Shown: in pieces, positions 7,520-35,315 of the stretch
How the letters are laid out: every line of letters starts with the position of its first letter
Numbering within the stretch: position 1 is the first letter of the stretch
NCBI RefSeq assembly: GCF_024438035.1
Contig: NZ_JANFQF010000005.1
Location: forward strand, 124,001 to 188,000
Source of the DNA: Rhodococcus tibetensis
Lineage (GTDB): Bacteria; Actinomycetota; Actinomycetes; Mycobacteriales; Mycobacteriaceae
Reading direction: 5' to 3'
DNA: 64,000 nt
Notes under the pieces: model-generated
Databases searched by the model: none
What the model was told of the DNA's origin: nothing
Seen by the model: the letters and a program-made list of their open reading frames with translations, nothing else
Translations under genes and position numbers: made by a program

Positions 7520-8155
7520 CTAGAGCCCAGCGGAAAGGCTACGGCCGAGCGGAAGGTTACGACCCAGGACCGCGAACGGACGATTGTCACCTGCGAACCG
7601 GAAGTGCCGCAGCACATCGGTGAATCCGAGACGACGATAGAGCCGCCACGCGCGATTGTCCTCGTCGGCGACCTCGGGGGTGGACAACAGCACACCGCGC
7701 TCGGGTCTGCGGTCGAGCAGTCGGAGAAGGAGCGTCTCGCCGAGACGGTGTCCCTGGGCGTCGGGGTGCACGTGGAGTTCGGTCAGTTCGAAATAGTCGT
7801 CGAGGATCGTGTCGATCCGGTCAAGGGTCCAGCCGGTGTGCCGTAAACCGGTGCGGACCTGCTGGTGCCACCACTGTTCGGGGGCTCCCCGGTAGCCGTA
7901 GGCGACAGCGACGAGGCGGTCGACCGCATCGGATTCGGTGGACGGATCGGCGGGGACCACTGCGCCGACACCACACCACCCTGATCGCTGCACGTGCTCG
8001 GTCCACATCGGCGCCCGGTGATATTCCGTCCCCCGGGGATAGCCCATGGCGGCGACATAGATCGCGAGGGCCTCCTGGAGGCGGTCGCGAAACTCGGCAG
8101 CCGAGAGTTCGACCACGAGCGGGATCTGGTCAGCGTTCGTGTCGACCGGTCTCAC
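7520..8155 (-). CDS. GNAT-family N-acetyltransferase
   Basis: Cytoplasmic acetyltransferase of 211 residues. The acetyl-CoA pyrophosphate loop is visible as QGHRLGETLL (about 134-143), following the beta strand TELHVHP. The C-terminal NRAWRLYRRLGF segment is typical of GNAT domains. The GTG at 8155 is chosen because the frame further upstream is low-quality coding and AGAGAAGG directly precedes this codon. Position next to lppM and the DUF3040/mraZ region matches M. tuberculosis Rv2170, a GNAT protein. The acceptor substrate cannot be read from sequence. It is divergent from the HEPN gene, so the LexA-type box at 8201-8216 lies in its upstream region too. Confidence 0.82.
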   Translation of the reverse strand: MRPVDTNADQIPLVVELSAAEFRDRLQEALAIYVAAMGYPRGTEYHRAPMWTEHVQRSGWCGVGAVVPADPSTESDAVDRLVAVAYGYRGAPEQWWHQQVRTGLRHTGWTLDRIDTILDDYFELTELHVHPDAQGHRLGETLLLRLLDRRPERGVLLSTPEVADEDNRAWRLYRRLGFTDVLRHFRFAGDNRPFAVLGRNLPLGRSLSAGL

Positions 8156-8162
8156 CCTTCTC

Positions 8163-8193
8163 TTGACGACGTGTCGGTGGGTCCAGCTATATT
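8163..8193 (+). promoter_or_regulatory. Sigma-70-type promoter of the HEPN gene
   Basis: TTGACG (8163-8168) and TATATT (8188-8193) are separated by 19 bp. The predicted start of transcription is at about 8200, immediately before or within the LexA-type box, an arrangement in which a bound repressor would block initiation. Confidence 0.55.
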
Positions 8194-8200
8194 GAATAGG

Positions 8201-8216
8201 TCGAACGGATGTTCGA
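8201..8216 (+). promoter_or_regulatory. LexA-type SOS box
   Basis: TCGAACGGATGTTCGA is a perfect match to the actinobacterial/Gram-positive LexA operator form TCGAAC-N4-GTTCGA. It lies directly downstream of the -10 hexamer TATATT, the position expected for repression of the downstream HEPN gene. It is also 46 bp from the start of the divergent GNAT gene. Confidence 0.75.
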
Positions 8217-8325
8217 TAGCGGGGATCCGGTGATGCTCGAGGGAAGCGAGCATCGCCGGCGCCCCGGCTCACGACAGGACTACGCCCGGCGGGGTGGACA
8301 CACCGGGGTTGTGGAGGTGTTCGAA

Positions 8326-8793
8326 GTGAGGAACAACTCGGTTTCAGGACCGACTTCTGAGCGCTCGCGGCGACCGGGGGATGTGCGTGCTCCTGCATCG
8401 CGGCGCGCCGCGTCGTTGCTCGCTCGAGCCGACGCGCTCCTCTCCCAATCGGTCGGTGCCGGCTCGCCTGCGGATCGTTTCCACAGCGCGTACCTGGCCG
8501 CACTCCGCGGTGCCGGTGCGGTGCTGGCGGCCGCGGAGGGTGCCTCGCCGGGAGGCCGACGGACACGAACGCGTAACGCTTGGGTTCTCATGGCCGACGC
8601 GGCGGTCGATTTCGGCGAATGGGCCGACTATTTCGCCGGGCACTCCGCCACTCGCGCGGCGATAGAGGCCGGTATGTCGCGAACACTCACCGATCTCGAG
8701 GCGGACGAGTTCTTTGTCGAGGTGGGGCGGTTTCTCCAAGCGGTGGAAGACCACATCGGGCGCGGTGTCGACATCGATTTGAGGGCGTCGTAG
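8326..8793 (+). CDS. SAV_6107-family HEPN domain protein, probably LexA-regulated
   Basis: Small protein of 155 residues, mostly alpha-helical after a basic N-terminus of about 25 residues. The order of helices (RRAASLLARADALL, RFHSAYLAALRGAGAVL, WVLMADAAVDFGEWADYF, LEADEFFVEVGRFL) matches the SAV_6107 HEPN family of actinobacteria. The canonical HEPN ribonuclease motif (R-x4-6-H) is not evident, so nuclease activity is doubtful. GTG at 8326 is preferred because GGAGG (8313-8317) lies 8 bp before it; the frame reaches back to an ATG at 8209, but that ATG lies inside the LexA box. Expression is expected after DNA damage. The function is unknown. Confidence 0.72.
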   Translation: MRNNSVSGPTSERSRRPGDVRAPASRRAASLLARADALLSQSVGAGSPADRFHSAYLAALRGAGAVLAAAEGASPGGRRTRTRNAWVLMADAAVDFGEWADYFAGHSATRAAIEAGMSRTLTDLEADEFFVEVGRFLQAVEDHIGRGVDIDLRAS

Positions 8794-9027
8794 CTGCCCG
8801 TCGAGCTCGGAACCGGGCCCGGACACGCGCGCGGTCGGCCACATTGCGAAGCCCGAGGCAGGGTTCGGTGCGGGAGTCCGTAAGGTTGGTGTCGAACTCG
8901 TGCACCGAGTAGGTGGTACGGGGATCGAACTGCTCGTATTATTGAATCTAGGTAGCCGCCAAAGTCGGTTACCCACCGTCTCGCACCGTGAGGCGGTGGC
9001 CAACACTCCAGTGCCGGGGGAGGTACC

Positions 9028-9456
9028 GTGCCACTCTCCGAGCACGAGCAGCGCATGCTCGACCAGATCGAGAGCGCTCTCTATGCCGAAGATCCCAAGT
9101 TCGCCTCCACTGTGCGAGGCGGTCGCATGCGTGCGGCATCGAGTCGTCGTCGATTGCAAGCTGTAGCCCTGTTCGTCCTGGGACTGGTACTGCTCATCGC
9201 CGGCGTCGCCCTGCCGATCAAGCCGGGTGGTTTTCCGATCATCAGCTTGATCGGCTTCATCGTTATGTTCGGTGCGGGAGTCCTCCTCCTGTGGGGTGGG
9301 GGAAAGAAGCAGTCCCGACAGTCGTCGCGTGGCGGCTCGACCACGCCCGACGAGACCAAGAGGACCGACCGGGGTAAGCCTCGGAGCGGACGCAAGAGTG
9401 GCGGGTTCTCGTCGCGAATGGAAGATCGCTTCAAGAAGAGGTTCGAGCAGGAGTAA
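9028..9456 (+). CDS. DUF3040 membrane protein
   Basis: Protein of 142 residues starting with the family-typical PLSEHEQRMLDQIE segment. Two adjacent membrane helices follow (about residues 43-63 and 67-92), then a highly basic Ser/Gly/Lys/Arg cytoplasmic tail. The GTG is preceded by GGGGGAGG at ideal spacing. M. tuberculosis has a DUF3040 gene (Rv2169c) in the same place just upstream of mraZ. The function is unknown; location beside the division cluster hints at an envelope role. A very strong terminator follows at once, so it is transcriptionally separate from mraZ. Confidence 0.85.
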   Translation: MPLSEHEQRMLDQIESALYAEDPKFASTVRGGRMRAASSRRRLQAVALFVLGLVLLIAGVALPIKPGGFPIISLIGFIVMFGAGVLLLWGGGKKQSRQSSRGGSTTPDETKRTDRGKPRSGRKSGGFSSRMEDRFKKRFEQE

Positions 9457-9941: not shown

Positions 9942-10373
9942 GTGTTTCTCGGTACCTACACGCCGAAGCTCGACGACAAGGGGCGGCTGACGTTGCCCGC
10001 AAAGTTCCGGGATGCACTGGCGGGAGGGTTGATGGTCACCAAGGGTCAGGATCACAGCCTTGCGGTGTATCCCCGGGAAGAGTTCACTGCGCTTGCGCGC
10101 AAGGCCGCGGCCGCCTCGAGAAGCGATCCGGAAGCGCGAGCATTCGTCCGTGGTCTCGCTGCCGGCACCGATGAGCAGCACGCAGATGCCCAGGGGCGCA
10201 TCACCCTCTCGGCAGATCACCGTCGTTACGCGGGTCTTTCCAAGGATTGCGTAGTGATCGGTTCGGTCGATTTCCTCGAGATCTGGGATGCGCAAGCATG
10301 GCAGACCTACATCGAGGAAAACGAGGAGAACTACTCGCAGGCAACGGGAGTCGCGCTCGGCGAGATCGTCTGA
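9942..10373 (+). CDS. mraZ: Transcriptional regulator MraZ
   Basis: DNA-binding protein of 143 residues, the first gene of the division/cell-wall cluster. It has two SpoVT-AbrB-like halves, each with the family motif: [10 protein letters not shown] at about 11-20 and DAQGRITL in the second half. MraZ forms oligomeric rings that bind tandem GTGG-type repeats and repress its own operon. GTG at 9942 follows GGGAGGTG. Repeats of the expected type lie just upstream, so autoregulation is likely. A 198-bp gap with no obvious terminator separates it from rsmH. Confidence 0.97.
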
Positions 10374-10571: not shown

Positions 10572-11588
10572 ATGGTGGATCACGAGGGGGAACAATCCTC
10601 GCCCGCCGATGGTTTCGGTCATATCCCGGTATTGCTGCACCGGGCAGTCGAACTGCTGGGCCCCGCTCTCACTTTGCACGATCCGGAGGGTGGGGGAGCT
10701 GTCATGATCGACGCCACCCTCGGCCTCGGCGGGCACAGCGAGCACTTCCTCCGGACGTACCCGCAGCTGAAACTTGTGGCCCTCGATCGAGATCCACACG
10801 CCCTCGAGATCGCGGGAGCTCGGCTCGCCCAGTTCGCGGACCGGGTGACATTCGTCCACACGCGGTACGACGGCATCGAGAATGCCCTCGTCGAAGCGGG
10901 ACTTCCTCCCGAGGATTCCGTGCACGGCATCCTCTTCGACCTCGGGGTCTCATCGATGCAGCTCGACGAGTCGGATCGCGGTTTCGCTTACTCCATCGAC
11001 GCACCGCTCGACATGCGGATGGATCCGACGACAGGCATCACGGCGGCAGAGGTACTCAACACATACAGCCACGGTGATCTGGCTCGGATCCTCAGCACGT
11101 ACGGCGAGGAACGATTCGCGGGAAGAATCGCCTCGGAAATCGTCCGACAGCGGGCGAAGCAGCCGTTCACGACCAGCGCCGAACTGGTCGAACTGTTGTA
11201 TCGCGCCATTCCGGCGGCCACTCGCCGGACCGGGGGGCACCCCGCCAAGCGGACGTTCCAAGCCCTTCGAGTGGAGGTCAACGGCGAACTCGATTCCCTG
11301 CGAGCGGCAATACCAGCTGCGCTCGACTCGTTGACTGTCGGGGGACGCGTCGTGTTCATGTCGTATCAGTCGCTCGAAGATCGGGTCGTCAAACAGGAGA
11401 TCACTCCCCGCTCGAAGTCGAGGAGTCCCGAGGGGCTCCCTGTCGAATTACCGGGAATGGGGCCGGAGTTCCGCATCCTCACCCGAGGGGCGGAGCGCGC
11501 GTCCGAGCAGGAAGTAGAAGAGAACCCACGATCAGCCCCGGTGCGCTTGCGCGCTGCAGAAAGAATTGCCAGGAGGTCGGCGGCATGA
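10572..11588 (+). CDS. rsmH: 16S rRNA (cytosine(1402)-N4)-methyltransferase RsmH
   Basis: SAM-dependent methyltransferase (formerly MraW) that N4-methylates C1402 of 16S rRNA. The SAM site is visible as [14 protein letters not shown] (about 47-60) with [11 protein letters not shown] after it. [11 protein letters not shown] and [16 protein letters not shown] are family signatures. The length of 338 residues is normal. ATG is preceded by GGAGGG. Its stop overlaps the ftsL start (ATGA), the first of a run of such overlaps through the cluster. Confidence 0.97.
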
Positions 11589-30802: not shown

Positions 30803-33800
30803 GTGAGCACCACAAGTAACGTCACCAACAGCAACGAGTCCTACCCGAAGGTCGATTACGGCGTTCAGCAGGATACGGGCGTCAAGTTCCCTCAGGTGGA
30901 GCAGCGTGTGCTGGCAGGTTGGGACGAGGACGACACCTTCCGGGCGTCCGTGACGCAGCGTGACGGCGACGAAGAGTTCGTCTTCTATGACGGCCCGCCG
31001 TTCGCCAACGGTCTTCCGCACTACGGTCACCTACTGACCGGGTATGTCAAAGACCTGATCCCGCGTTTCCAGACGATGCGCGGCAAGAAGGTCGAGCGCC
31101 GGTTCGGGTGGGACTGCCACGGCCTTCCGGCCGAACTCGAGGCGGAAAAGCAGCTCGGCATCAAGGACAAATCCGAGATCGACGTCATGGGTCTCGAGAA
31201 GTTCAACGAGTACTGCAAGTCCTCGGTTCTGCGGTACACCGACGAGTGGCGCGACTACGTCACCCGCCAGGCAAGGTGGGTCGACTTCGACAACGATTAC
31301 AAGACCCTGGACCTCGACTTCATGGAGTCGGTCATGTGGGCGTTCAAGGAGCTGTTCGACAAGGGGCTGATCTACCAGGGCTTCCGGGTGCTGCCGTACA
31401 GCTGGTACGAGCAGACGCCGCTGTCGAATCAGGAGACCCGACTCGACGACGCGTACAAGATGCGTCAGGACCCGGCCGTCACCGTCGACATGCCGCTGCG
31501 CGGTGAGGGCCCGCTGGACGGCGCGAACGCGATCATCTGGACCACGACGCCCTGGACGCTGCCGTCCAACCTCGCGGTCGCGGTGCATCCCGACATCGAC
31601 TACGTACAGGTATCGGGGCTCGACGGGAAGCGCTATGTGCTCGCCCGGGATCGTCTGAGCCACTATGCCCGTGAACTCGGTGACTCGCCGGAGGTGCTGT
31701 CCGAACACAAGGGGGCCGATCTCATCGGTCTGCACTACGATCCGCCGTTCGATTTCTTCGCCGGCCACGAGAACGCGCATCGCGTCATCTCCGCGGAGTA
31801 CGTCACCACGGAATCCGGTACCGGGATCGTGCACATGGCCCCGGCTTTCGGTGAGGAGGACTACGACTACTGCCTCCGCAACGGCATCGAATTGGTCCAG
31901 CCGCTCGACGCGGGTGGCAAGTTCACGTCGATGGTCCCGCCTTACGAGGGACTTCAGGTGTTCGACGCCAACCCGGCGATCATCAAGGACCTCAAGGCTG
32001 CTGGAAAGTTGCTGCGGCACGAGACGATTGAGCACTCGTATCCGCACAGCTGGCGCAGCGGGCAGCCGCTCATCTACATGGCGGTCCCGTCGTGGTTCGT
32101 CGCGGTCACCAAATTCCGCGATCGAATGGTCGAGCTGAACCAGGAGATCACCTGGGTACCCGAGCACATCCGTGACGGACAGTTCGGCAAGTGGCTCGAG
32201 GGTGCCCGCGACTGGAACATCAGCCGTAACCGGTACTGGGGCAGCCCCATCCCGGTGTGGGTGTCCGACGACCCGGCGTACCCGCGGACCGATGTGTACG
32301 GCTCGCTCGACGAACTCGAGCGCGACTTCGGCGTGCGGCCGAGCGATCTGCACCGGCCGATGATCGACGAGCTCGTCCGTCCCAACCCGGACGATCCGAC
32401 GGGAAAGTCGATGATGCGTCGAGTTCCCGAGGTACTCGACTGCTGGTTCGAATCCGGGTCGATGCCCTACGCGCAGGTGCACTACCCCTTCGAGAATCGC
32501 GATTGGTTCGATAGCCACTTCCCGGGTGACTTCATCGTCGAATACAACGGTCAGACTCGCGGATGGTTCTATACCCTCCACGTGCTCGCGACCGCGCTGT
32601 TCGATCGTCCCGCGTTCAAGACCGTTGCGGCGCACGGCATCGTGCTCGGCGACGATGGACTGAAGATGAGCAAGTCGAAGGGCAACTACCCGGATGTCAA
32701 GGAGGTGTTCGAGCGCGACGGCTCGGACGCCATGCGGTGGTTCCTCATGTCTTCGCCGATCCTGCGGGGCGGAAACCTCGTGGTCACCGAACAAGGCATC
32801 CGCGAGGGTGTGCGGCAGGCGCTGCTGCCGTTGTGGAACGCGTGGAGCTTTCTGCAGCTGTATGCGCCGAAGCCGGGCCAGTGGCGGACCGATTCGACCA
32901 ACGTCCTCGACCGGTACATCCTCGCGAAATTGGCCGGCACCAGGGACGTGATCACCGATGCGCTCGAGACGAACGACATCGCCGGCGCGTGTGACGAACT
33001 GCGCACGTTCTGTGATGCATTGACCAATTGGTATGTACGCCGTTCGCGTTCGCGGTTCTGGAGTGAGGACGCCGAGGCGGTCGACACCCTGCACGCGGTG
33101 CTCGAGGTGGTCACCCGTCTCTCCGCTCCCTTGCTCCCACTGATCACCGAGGTGATCTGGCGGGGGCTGACCGGCGGCCGGTCGGTGCATCTCGCGGACT
33201 GGCCTGCCCAGGGTGAACTGCCGGCGGATCCGGAACTGGTGTCGGCGATGGACGAGGTCCGGTCGGTGTGCTCGACGGTGCTCGGTTTGCGGAAGGCGCA
33301 GAACCTGCGGGTGCGGTTGCCGCTGCCCGAGGTGACGGTGGCCGCCGACGACGCGGAGCGCCTGCGTCCGTTCCTGGGACTGATCGCCGACGAGGTCAAC
33401 GTGAAGAAGGTCGACCTGACGACGGATGTGGACGTGCACGGCCGTTTCGAGCTCGTCGTCAACGCGCGCGCCGCGGGGCCGCGTTTGGGCAAGGACGTGC
33501 AGACCGTGATCAAGGCCGTGAAGTCGGGTGAGTGGTCGGAGAATGCGGACGGGGTCGTCACCGCGGCGGGGATCGAATTGCTGCCCGAGGAGTACACGCA
33601 GCGGCTCGTGGCGGCCGAACCCGAGTCGACCGCCGCACTGCCGGGTGGTGCCGGTCTGGTGGTTCTCGACTCGGCCGTTACCGAGGAACTGGAAGCCGAG
33701 GGCTGGGCGAAGGACCGCATCCGCGAGTTGCAGGACGCGCGCCGGGCAGCAGGCCTCGACGTATCGGACCGCATCACCGTGGTGCTCGAGGTTCCGGCCG

Positions 33801-33937
33801 AACGGCGGGACTGGGCACGTGCTCACCGCGATCTGATCGCGGGCGAGATCCTCGCGGTCGAGCTCGAACTCGCCGACGCGCCCGCCGACGCGGTCGAGCT
33901 CGGTGAGGGTGTGCGGGCGGCCATCTCCAAAGTGTGA
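30803..33937 (+). CDS. ileS: Isoleucine--tRNA ligase IleS
   Basis: Class I aminoacyl-tRNA synthetase of 1044 residues. The HIGH-type motif is PHYGH (72-76), the KMSKS loop is at 621-625, and the CP1 editing domain lies between them ([12 protein letters not shown] region). The long form with C-terminal extension and lack of obvious zinc-finger cysteines fits the actinobacterial eukaryote-like type. GTG at 30803 follows GAGGAG, which is expected to be masked by the T-box leader until tRNA-Ile is uncharged. Confidence 0.97.
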
Positions 33938-33955
33938 GCTGTCGGACCGGGCGGG

Positions 33956-33961
33956 TACGTT
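33956..33961 (+). promoter_or_regulatory. Candidate -10 element for leaderless dinB mRNA
   Basis: TACGTT lies 7 bp before the dinB GTG and 18 bp after the ileS stop, with no ribosome site in between. It suggests dinB can be transcribed independently of the T-box-controlled ileS message. No LexA-type box was found near it. Confidence 0.4.
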
Positions 33962-33968
33962 GCACCAG

Positions 33969-35315
33969 GTGAGCCGTCGATGGGTGCTGCACCTCGACAT
34001 GGACGCGTTTTTCGCCTCGGTCGAGCAGCTCACCCGGCCGACGCTTCGTGGCCGCCCGGTGCTCGTCGGTGGGCTCGGCGGCCGTGGGGTGGTCGCCGGG
34101 GCCAGTTACGAGGCGCGGGTGTTCGGAGCCCGCTCCGCGATGCCGATGCACCAGGCCCGGCGGCTCGTCGGGCCCGGTGCCGTCGTGTTGCCGCCGCGCG
34201 GTCGGCTGTACGGCATGTTGAGCAAGTCCGTGTTCGATGCGGTGCGTGGTCCCATGCCCGTGCTCGAGCAGCTGTCGATGGACGAGGCCTTCGGTGAACC
34301 GGCAGAGTTGGCCGGGGCGGATGCGGCCATGGTGCGCAGGTACTGCGAGGACCTGCGGGCCCTGGTGTTCGAAGAAACCGGACTGGTCGCATCGATCGGT
34401 GCGGGATCCGGCAAGCAGGTGGCCAAGATCGCGTCCGGTCTGGCCAAACCGAACGGAATCACCGTCGTCGCGCCGGAAGAACAGCACGCGCTGCTCGACG
34501 GGCTGCCGGTGCGGAAGTTGTGGGGCATCGGTCCCGTCGCCGAGGACAAGCTCAAACGCCTCGGCATCGAGACGATCGGAAGTTTCGCGCGCACTCCCGA
34601 AGCCGAGGTCGCGTCCATTCTCGGCACCACGATCGGCCCGGGCCTGCACCGGCTGGCGCGGGGCATCGACAATCGGCCCGTCGCCGAGCGGGCCGAGTCG
34701 AAACAGGTCAGTGCCGAGACCACCTACGCCACCGACATTGTCACGCTCGCGGAACTGCGGGGAGCGGTCGAGTCGAGTGCTGGTTCCGCATTCGCACGCC
34801 TGCAGAAGGACGGCCGGGCGGCGCGAACAGTGGTGCTGAAGCTGAAGAAGGCGGATATGAGCATCGTCACCCGGTCGGTCACCTTGCCCTACGCCACGCT
34901 GGACCGTCCCACCCTTGTCGCCGCGGCTCAGCGACAGGTGATCGACCCTCTCGAACTCGGTCCCGTGCGCCTCGTCGGGGTCGGCTTCGCCGGTCTGTCG
35001 ACGGTGCGGCAAGGTTCGCTGTTTCCCGAACTCGATCTGGACGTGCCCGGCTATCGGGACTCGGCGGCGGCACAGGCCGAAGGCGGCGCGGTGTCGCCCG
35101 TGCAGCCGATCCCGGCACGCGAGGCCGAGCGACGATGGCATCCGGGTCTCGATGTGATGCATCCCGACTTCGGGCACGGTTGGGTCCAGGGCGCGGGGCA
35201 GGGTGTCGTGACCGTCCGATTCGAAACGCGCACAACTGGTCCCGGTGTGGCGCGCACCTTCAAGGAGAACGACGAGCAACTCGCGCAAGCGGGAGTGGAG
35301 GGCTCCCTCGCCTGA
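33969..35315 (+). CDS. dinB: Y-family DNA polymerase IV (DinB/DinX type)
   Basis: Translesion polymerase of 448 residues. The catalytic acidic residues appear as [12 protein letters not shown] (Asp10, Asp12) and SMDEAF (Asp105, Glu106). Helix-hairpin-helix [17 protein letters not shown] follows. A QGSLF sequence (348-352) resembles the beta-clamp binding motif, and about 90 further residues form an extra C-terminal region. Location straight after ileS matches mycobacterial DinX (Rv1537). GTG at 33969 is chosen for the conserved start [12 protein letters not shown]; upstream in-frame sequence lies in ileS. Confidence 0.94.

Follow-up and report, generated by a model that had tools for sequence, protein, structure and literature searches.

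Actinobacteria rely on DnaE2-type mutasomes for the mutagenesis that follows DNA damage, and the composition of these complexes is still under study. The ImuA'-ImuB-DnaE2 mutasome and the DnaE2-[ImuB-C] modules (PMC12926913) join a DnaE2-type polymerase to an ImuB or ImuB-C partner, a pairing that recurs in the operons described below, and these operons also open with a LexA-type box. The term HEPN does not occur in the main text of that paper; in the relatives compared here, a SAV_6107-type HEPN gene is a recurrent extra member of such operons, and in Rhodococcus it stands apart from them. No paper linking HEPN to translesion synthesis was found in the literature searched. The term is absent from the main text of PMC9380542, and no entry in the main-text LexA table of S. 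venezuelae was recognisable as the HEPN gene.

Control of a single gene by both damage pathways is known from mycobacterial recA, which has a PafBC-dependent promoter P1 and a LexA-controlled promoter P2 (PMC5656591, PMC8223512). The gene described here resembles recA in this respect; however, the two recA promoters are separate, whereas the LexA box of the HEPN gene overlaps the expected start of the PafBC-type promoter itself. An HEPN fold in an SOS context has been described for STM14_3211 of the Gifsy-1 prophage of Salmonella (PMC9879122), which is seen as a candidate ribonuclease, whereas the SAV_6107 family lacks the catalytic His and gave no phage match. Finally, cg2381 of Corynebacterium glutamicum is a LexA-regulon gene for a conserved hypothetical protein (PMC5055667, citing Jochmann 2009), which ciprofloxacin had induced after one hour (M=3.86) and which lies three gene numbers from mraZ (cg2378). 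It shares with the gene studied here the position near mraZ and, as is predicted for the latter, membership of the LexA regulon and induction by damage, and differs in that the 11 boxed Corynebacterium genomes lack the PafBC motif seen at the Rhodococcus HEPN loci.

The whole stretch analysed, called the window below, comprises 64,000 nucleotides of the Rhodococcus tibetensis genome. The features of interest are the following.

7520..8155, minus strand: divergent GNAT acetyltransferase gene, predicted start (Pfam)
8172..8179, plus strand: TGTCGGTG, putative PafBC/RecA-NDp upstream element, fitting tTGTCRgtg-8nt-TannnT (PMC5656591)
8188..8193, plus strand: TATATT, putative -10 element of the PafBC-type motif (sequence, conservation)
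8201..8216, no strand assigned: LexA-type operator TCGAACGGATGTTCGA, placed on the predicted transcription start or directly behind it (pattern match, conservation)
8313..8317, plus strand: GGAGG, probable Shine-Dalgarno sequence of GTG 8326 (sequence, start scan)
8326..8793, plus strand: SAV_6107-type HEPN gene, 155 aa from GTG 8326; ATG 8209, in frame and within the box, is the other candidate start (Pfam PF18726; AF2 model)
9028..9456, plus strand: DUF3040 / SCO2097-family gene, which recurs downstream of HEPN in relatives (Pfam, NCBIfam, synteny)
9942..10373, plus strand: mraZ, first gene of the division cluster (Pfam, NCBIfam)
10572..11588, plus strand: rsmH (mraW) (Pfam, NCBIfam)

The open reading frame 8209-8793 matched Pfam PF18726 (HEPN_SAV_6107) with an E value of 1.2e-29 and 103.1 bits, against a cut-off of 27.2. 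Its most credible start, judged from the sequence, is GTG 8326, which is preceded at eight bases by GGAGG and lies 109 bp past the box, the distance given in the preliminary description of this DNA. Among the 27 boxed Rhodococcus loci, no more than 16 had the equivalent of ATG 8209 in frame, and one of the 16 (L029) had the frame closed by a later stop; the start inside the box was therefore rejected as a general start. The gene is surrounded by the divergent GNAT gene and by DUF3040, mraZ, rsmH and a transpeptidase gene (Pfam, NCBIfam), and its reported place beside the division cluster was thus found again.

The operator TCGAACGGATGTTCGA at 8201-8216 is a perfect TCGAAC-N4-GTTCGA, as had been proposed; no other perfect match occurs within the window, and the 5.81-Mb genome has six in all. 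When one mismatch was allowed, 71 sites were found genome-wide, versus 4 for the pattern read backwards. The statement that dinB (33903-35315; Pfam) has no such box also held, since no site with two or fewer mismatches was present within 1 kb upstream of it, the nearest being a 3-mismatch site at 33573.

Upstream regions of SAV_6107-family genes, the comparison of which the preliminary description had called for, were scanned for the box in 225 loci, which represent 212 genomes (13 loci repeat a genome) and in which the loci given by the search are best-scoring ones and not a random sample. In the 900 bp before the HEPN domain, 170/225 loci had a box with at most one mismatch, and 128/225 a perfect one. 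The reversed pattern gave 0/225 and a downstream stretch of the same length 5/225; together with the genome-wide counts, these controls ruled out a chance box. By group, a box with at most one mismatch was present in 27/28 Rhodococcus genomes, so that it is kept in the close relatives on which the earlier prediction had been staked. The corresponding values were 34/40 for fetched family loci, 37/40 for fetched order loci, 16/27, 29/30 and 16/30 for the best-scoring family, order and class loci, respectively, and 11/30 for Corynebacterium. Boxes were weak in family f33, presumably Streptomycetaceae, with at least two mismatches in its 14 loci examined. An SOS box at the promoter, kept in relatives, is the sequence mark of a LexA-regulon gene, and the HEPN gene carries it. 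One Rhodococcus locus (L026, genome G017) had neither the box nor the PafBC motif; its assembly is 74% complete, and the GNAT start runs there almost straight into the HEPN gene, by deletion or assembly fault.

Upstream of the box, the stretch reads gTGTCGGTG-GGTCCAGC-TATATT, that is, TGTCGGTG-N8-TATATT at 8172-8193. The motif tTGTCRgtg-8nt-TannnT was printed as that of a RecA-independent damage promoter (PMC5656591), and this RecA-NDp motif is the target on which PafBC acts (PMC6789036, PMC8223512). The HEPN gene thus has the tTGTCRgtg-N8-TannnT promoter of the PafBC regulon. In 26 of 28 Rhodococcus loci, the motif stood exactly 29 bp ahead of the LexA box. Among 21 distinct Rhodococcus promoters, the mean column identity was 99% over the eight-base element and TATATT, and 100% over the twelve palindromic positions of the box, compared with 68% upstream and 71% downstream. 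Furthermore, of 285 HEPN loci (repeated genomes included), 82 carried the strict motif upstream and 2 carried it downstream, and there was no occurrence on the other strand. A PafBC motif with at most one mismatch lay 20-45 bp before the box in 75 of the 159 genomes having a box with at most one mismatch, while five shifted windows in the same genomes gave 1, 0, 0, 0 and 0. No motif was seen near the box in the boxed Corynebacterium genomes (0/11), and LexA control there would therefore operate without a PafBC element.

The preliminary description had set the box behind a TTGACG/TATATT promoter. Both hexamers are indeed present before it (8163-8168 and 8188-8193), but they are separated by a spacer of 19 nt, and no sigma-70 promoter with a spacer of 16-18 nt was found when 8100-9100 was scanned. 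The sigma-70 reading was set aside, and the element is better read as a PafBC-type promoter. As an activator site and a LexA operator are both present, the HEPN gene would have a composite damage promoter, and its dual control by PafBC and LexA is strongly predicted in Rhodococcus and nearer relatives.

Genome-wide, the strict PafBC motif was found at 18 sites, versus 1 for the reversed pattern. Of the genes behind the other 17 sites, five were scanned, in whole or in their printed parts: uvrA, a DEDD exonuclease, an ATP-dependent helicase (L382, which we take to be Lhr-like), one weakly SocA-like gene below the family cut-off and one without a match. Among the 18 sites, that of the HEPN gene alone had a LexA box with two or fewer mismatches in the stretch examined around it. 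The genome also has two overlapping WYL genes, in the arrangement expected for pafB-pafC; NCBIfam names neither WYL protein, and we assume that they are PafB-PafC.

The divergent GNAT gene has its likely GTG start (8155) 46 bp from the first base of the box, which is thus upstream of that gene too, as had been noted. The box might serve the GNAT gene as well or instead, and the divergent GNAT gene was present in all 37 loci of the Rhodococcus family that lack polymerase genes. However, the PafBC motif has an orientation and faces the HEPN gene, and in other families the box is kept with HEPN, or with DUF6504-HEPN, where no GNAT match is nearby. Control of the GNAT gene by this box is possible in principle, and we regard it as the least probable of the alternatives considered.

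C. glutamicum carries a PF18726 match, and GNAT, HEPN and DUF3040 were present in 20/20 fetched Corynebacterium loci, together with MraZ and RsmH in 18/20, in the order HEPN-DUF3040-MraZ. Because the family is present in the genome and the Corynebacterium loci share this gene order, cg2381 is very likely the orthologue of the window HEPN gene, an identity that is based on position and family presence. LexA control of the HEPN gene is consequently not new. The conservation of the box, the second damage element and the induction of this probable orthologue (PMC5055667) strongly support the prediction, already made in the preliminary description, that the HEPN protein is made after DNA damage.

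The AF2 model of the protein (pLDDT 88) is a helical bundle with the HEPN fold, and the only sequence relative found in the PDB was 2hsb (E 0.048). In HEPN ribonucleases, the canonical site is at the end of helix 3, and the SAV_6107 family is listed without the RNase motif (PMC3710099). In keeping with the earlier remark that no obvious motif could be seen, R-x4-6-H is absent from the window protein, and no His-rich column was found at the end of helix 3 across 47 aligned sequences; R110 is kept in 45/46 sequences with no His after it, and G116 in 45/46.

An active HEPN endoribonuclease that is induced by damage, cuts RNA and stops growth, as proposed for the Salmonella prophage gene, would agree with the modelled fold, with the precedent of that SOS-linked gene (PMC9879122) and with an R51-x4-H56 pair present in 22/47 aligned relatives (position 56 is Tyr in 23/47, including the window protein). 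However, this pair is located in helix 2 of the model and not at the canonical place, and the conserved R110 has no His partner. In addition, no MNT gene was found among the flanking genes scanned, the neighbours being GNAT and DUF3040, so that the gene pair of an MNT-HEPN toxin-antitoxin system is lacking. We give this ribonuclease or toxin very little chance.

A search of 50,697 phage records at E values up to 0.01 gave no match to HEPN_SAV_6107. Two matches came from the plasmid collection, one in an 11.85-Mb record and one in the Tsukamurella record NZ_LR134460.1 (L370); neither looks like a true plasmid gene, and an origin from a mobile element was rejected. Since mraZ-rsmH and further genes of the division cluster lie on the Tsukamurella record, it may be a chromosome fragment in spite of its plasmid label.

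The family was present in 28/28 Rhodococcus genomes, 186/201 family genomes, 240/298 order genomes, 171/246 class genomes and 60/61 Corynebacterium genomes, these samples overlapping one another. Fourteen of the 15 family genomes without PF18726 belong to genus g2, in which HEPN was absent from every genome listed (0/14). We take this genus to be, probably, Mycobacterium. The absence looks like a lineage loss. As DnaE2 was over the cut-off in 4/4 g2 genomes tested, a DnaE2 mutasome does not require HEPN.

The surroundings of the gene were compared in 120 fetched loci, one per genome, which were picked from the better-scoring matches and spread over genera and families, not drawn at random. Same-strand translesion genes were sought by tblastn with seeds taken from a few loci, 40 loci being inside the Rhodococcus family and 80 outside. 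Outside the family, a same-strand polymerase or imuB accompanied the HEPN gene in 57/80 loci and none was seen in 23/80; this linkage to translesion genes is new. Inside the family, such genes were found in 3/40 loci and in none of the other 37; in those 37, GNAT and DUF3040 flanked HEPN in 37/37, and mraZ and rsmH followed in 35/37. The full gene order across relatives is box - DUF6504 - HEPN - dnaE or imuA'-imuB-dnaE2 - methyltransferase - dinB - DUF3040, and the following parts of it were found, with the frequency of a box with at most one mismatch within 1.2 kb upstream.

DUF6504-HEPN-dnaE-methyltransferase-dinB: 10 loci (DUF3040 next in L251), box in 10/10
DUF6504-HEPN-dnaE-dinB-DUF3040: 5 loci, box in 5/5
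DUF6504-HEPN-dnaE: 8 loci, box in 8/8
HEPN-imuA'-imuB-dnaE2, with or without a preceding DUF6504: 13 loci, box in 11/13
HEPN-methyltransferase-dinB-DUF3040: 11 loci, box in 11/11

In the loci L275 and L276, imuA'-imuB-dnaE2 was upstream and HEPN had its own box. The three Rhodococcus-family loci with translesion genes (L117, L121, L140) carry a methyltransferase gene and dinB between HEPN and DUF3040. As these forms are nested parts of one order, the Rhodococcus form looks like the operon minus its polymerase genes, and the address beside the division cluster looks like a remnant of a translesion operon, the direction of change being our reading of the gene orders. ImuA' was confirmed on one representative (NF058630) and was found in 28/28 Rhodococcus genomes; DUF6504, confirmed on three (PF20114), was present in 32/120 loci.

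The nature of the neighbouring polymerase was considered as well. In L260 it is a clear DnaE2; in L179, L251 and L282 the gene right after HEPN encodes a divergent DnaE, whose score reached the curated cut-off of neither the DnaE1 nor the DnaE2 model. The divergent form would fit the DnaE2B group, which PMC12926913 connects with standalone ImuB-C. DUF6504 and ImuB-C are co-linear by eye, but the profile comparison gave no support (hhalign probability 0.2 out of 100); that DUF6504 is ImuB-C therefore stays a suggestion. In a class sample of 98 genomes, 75 had HEPN, and at least 25 of these 75 had a same-strand DnaE-family polymerase nearby, in 18 cases within 400 bp downstream. HEPN and over-cut-off DnaE2 were found together in 31 genomes, HEPN alone in 44, DnaE2 alone in 6 and neither in 17. 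At most 21/75 HEPN-bearing genomes lacked both a DnaE2 over the cut-off and a neighbouring polymerase, a number lowered from 25 because the locus comparison shows a polymerase beside HEPN in G536, G559, G560 and G579.

The preliminary description had offered two roles, a division brake or a repair factor. SulA and YneA are division inhibitors, and the HEPN protein could likewise delay septation after DNA damage, in the manner of SulA, YneA or DivS, the gene being placed at the division cluster for that reason. It does adjoin mraZ/rsmH/ftsI-type genes in Rhodococcus relatives and in Corynebacterium, and mraZ of C. glutamicum falls (M=-1.13) when cg2381 rises (PMC5055667). However, no match to DUF3040, mraZ or rsmH was found in the fetched flanks of the HEPN-imuA'-imuB-dnaE2 loci (13/13). 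Thus, the HEPN gene also occurs with polymerases and away from the division cluster, which disfavours a brake, and the mraZ address is accounted for by the co-linear operon dnaE-methyltransferase-dinB-DUF3040. A division brake is accordingly judged quite improbable, and of the two proposed roles it is the repair factor, acting with translesion polymerases, that is favoured.

The gene might also be a bystander that is induced by damage and shares only its regulation with the polymerases, with an independent role such as RNA binding or translation control. Motif-less HEPN domains have been proposed to bind RNA (PMC3710099), and the loci without same-strand translesion genes (37/40 inside the Rhodococcus family, 23/80 outside) are in line with such a role. 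On the other side, HEPN is tied in many families to several polymerase contexts, namely dnaE next to DUF6504, imuA'-imuB-dnaE2, dinB and combinations of these, which suggests a functional and not merely regulatory link. We consider the bystander unlikely, if less so than the brake or the ribonuclease.

Boxes of this type also accompany SOS genes elsewhere in the R. tibetensis genome. There is one lexA gene, with two 1-mismatch boxes upstream; a perfect LexA-type box precedes dnaE2 (1587 bits), and imuA' is preceded by one with 1 mismatch. For a RuvC domain, a 1-mismatch box lies just ahead of the domain, inside the longest open reading frame. Both imuA' and dnaE2 are on contig C10 and dinB is 25 kb from the HEPN gene, so that none of dnaE2, imuA', imuB and dinB is linked to it on the same strand at the window locus.

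Taken together, these results suggest that the HEPN gene, behind a PafBC-type motif and a perfect LexA-type box, is switched by damage and that its product is a non-catalytic accessory of SOS translesion polymerases, a reading that we hold to be likely. A translesion-polymerase role is the best-supported function, and the molecular partner is proposed from gene context. Single-stranded DNA would activate both PafBC and RecA; LexA would be cleaved and leave the box covering the start site, and RNA polymerase with PafBC would then transcribe the gene. The small helical protein may bind DnaE2, ImuB or an ImuB-C-like protein, DinB, or their nucleic acid, and thereby help to recruit or control the mutagenic polymerase machinery. 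In Rhodococcus, the locus would have lost dnaE, the methyltransferase gene and dinB and kept the HEPN gene beside DUF3040-mraZ-rsmH; imuA' and dnaE2 are still present elsewhere in this genome, each behind its own LexA-type box.

Several observations count against the proposed reading: the position of HEPN outside the polymerase operon in Rhodococcus, the g2 genomes with DnaE2 and no HEPN, the 23/80 outside-family loci and the up to 21/75 class genomes mentioned above, the weak boxes in Corynebacterium and in family f33, the three neighbouring polymerases that fall short of both DnaE cut-offs, the WYL pair that NCBIfam leaves unnamed, and the DUF6504-ImuB-C link, which the profile did not support. 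A wider proposal is that SAV_6107-type HEPN serves actinobacterial SOS mutasomes throughout the class, as a subunit or manager; a catalytically dead RNase fold would act as adaptor between ImuB-C-like proteins, DnaE2 and DinB under a fused PafBC-LexA promoter. We put it forward tentatively, as somewhat less probable than its negation. If it is true, the fused promoter would be a single element that both represses tightly and activates strongly.

HEPN is a concrete candidate for a missing mutasome component, since many families have it between DUF6504 and dnaE and since, where it stands alone, it has retained a near-perfect SOS box upstream. This provides a function hypothesis for a family that has none in Pfam or in the available text of the HEPN survey (PMC3710099), and the promoter would be a clean model of how the PafBC and LexA pathways combine.

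Some other boxes and motifs of the genome were also looked at. A DUF222/HNH gene was suspected by eye behind a box (L009, L012), had no Pfam match and was set aside. Two more perfect boxes (L005:1972-1987 and L006:1987-2002) had one neighbour scanned each, with no match, and the perfect LexA-type box at C18:106456 (L008:1957-1972) adjoins a WhiB-family gene (Pfam). In addition, strict PafBC motifs (L384, L374, L375, L387) lie ahead of the weakly SocA-like gene and of small genes that are VOC-fold-like by eye; all of these are candidate damage genes.
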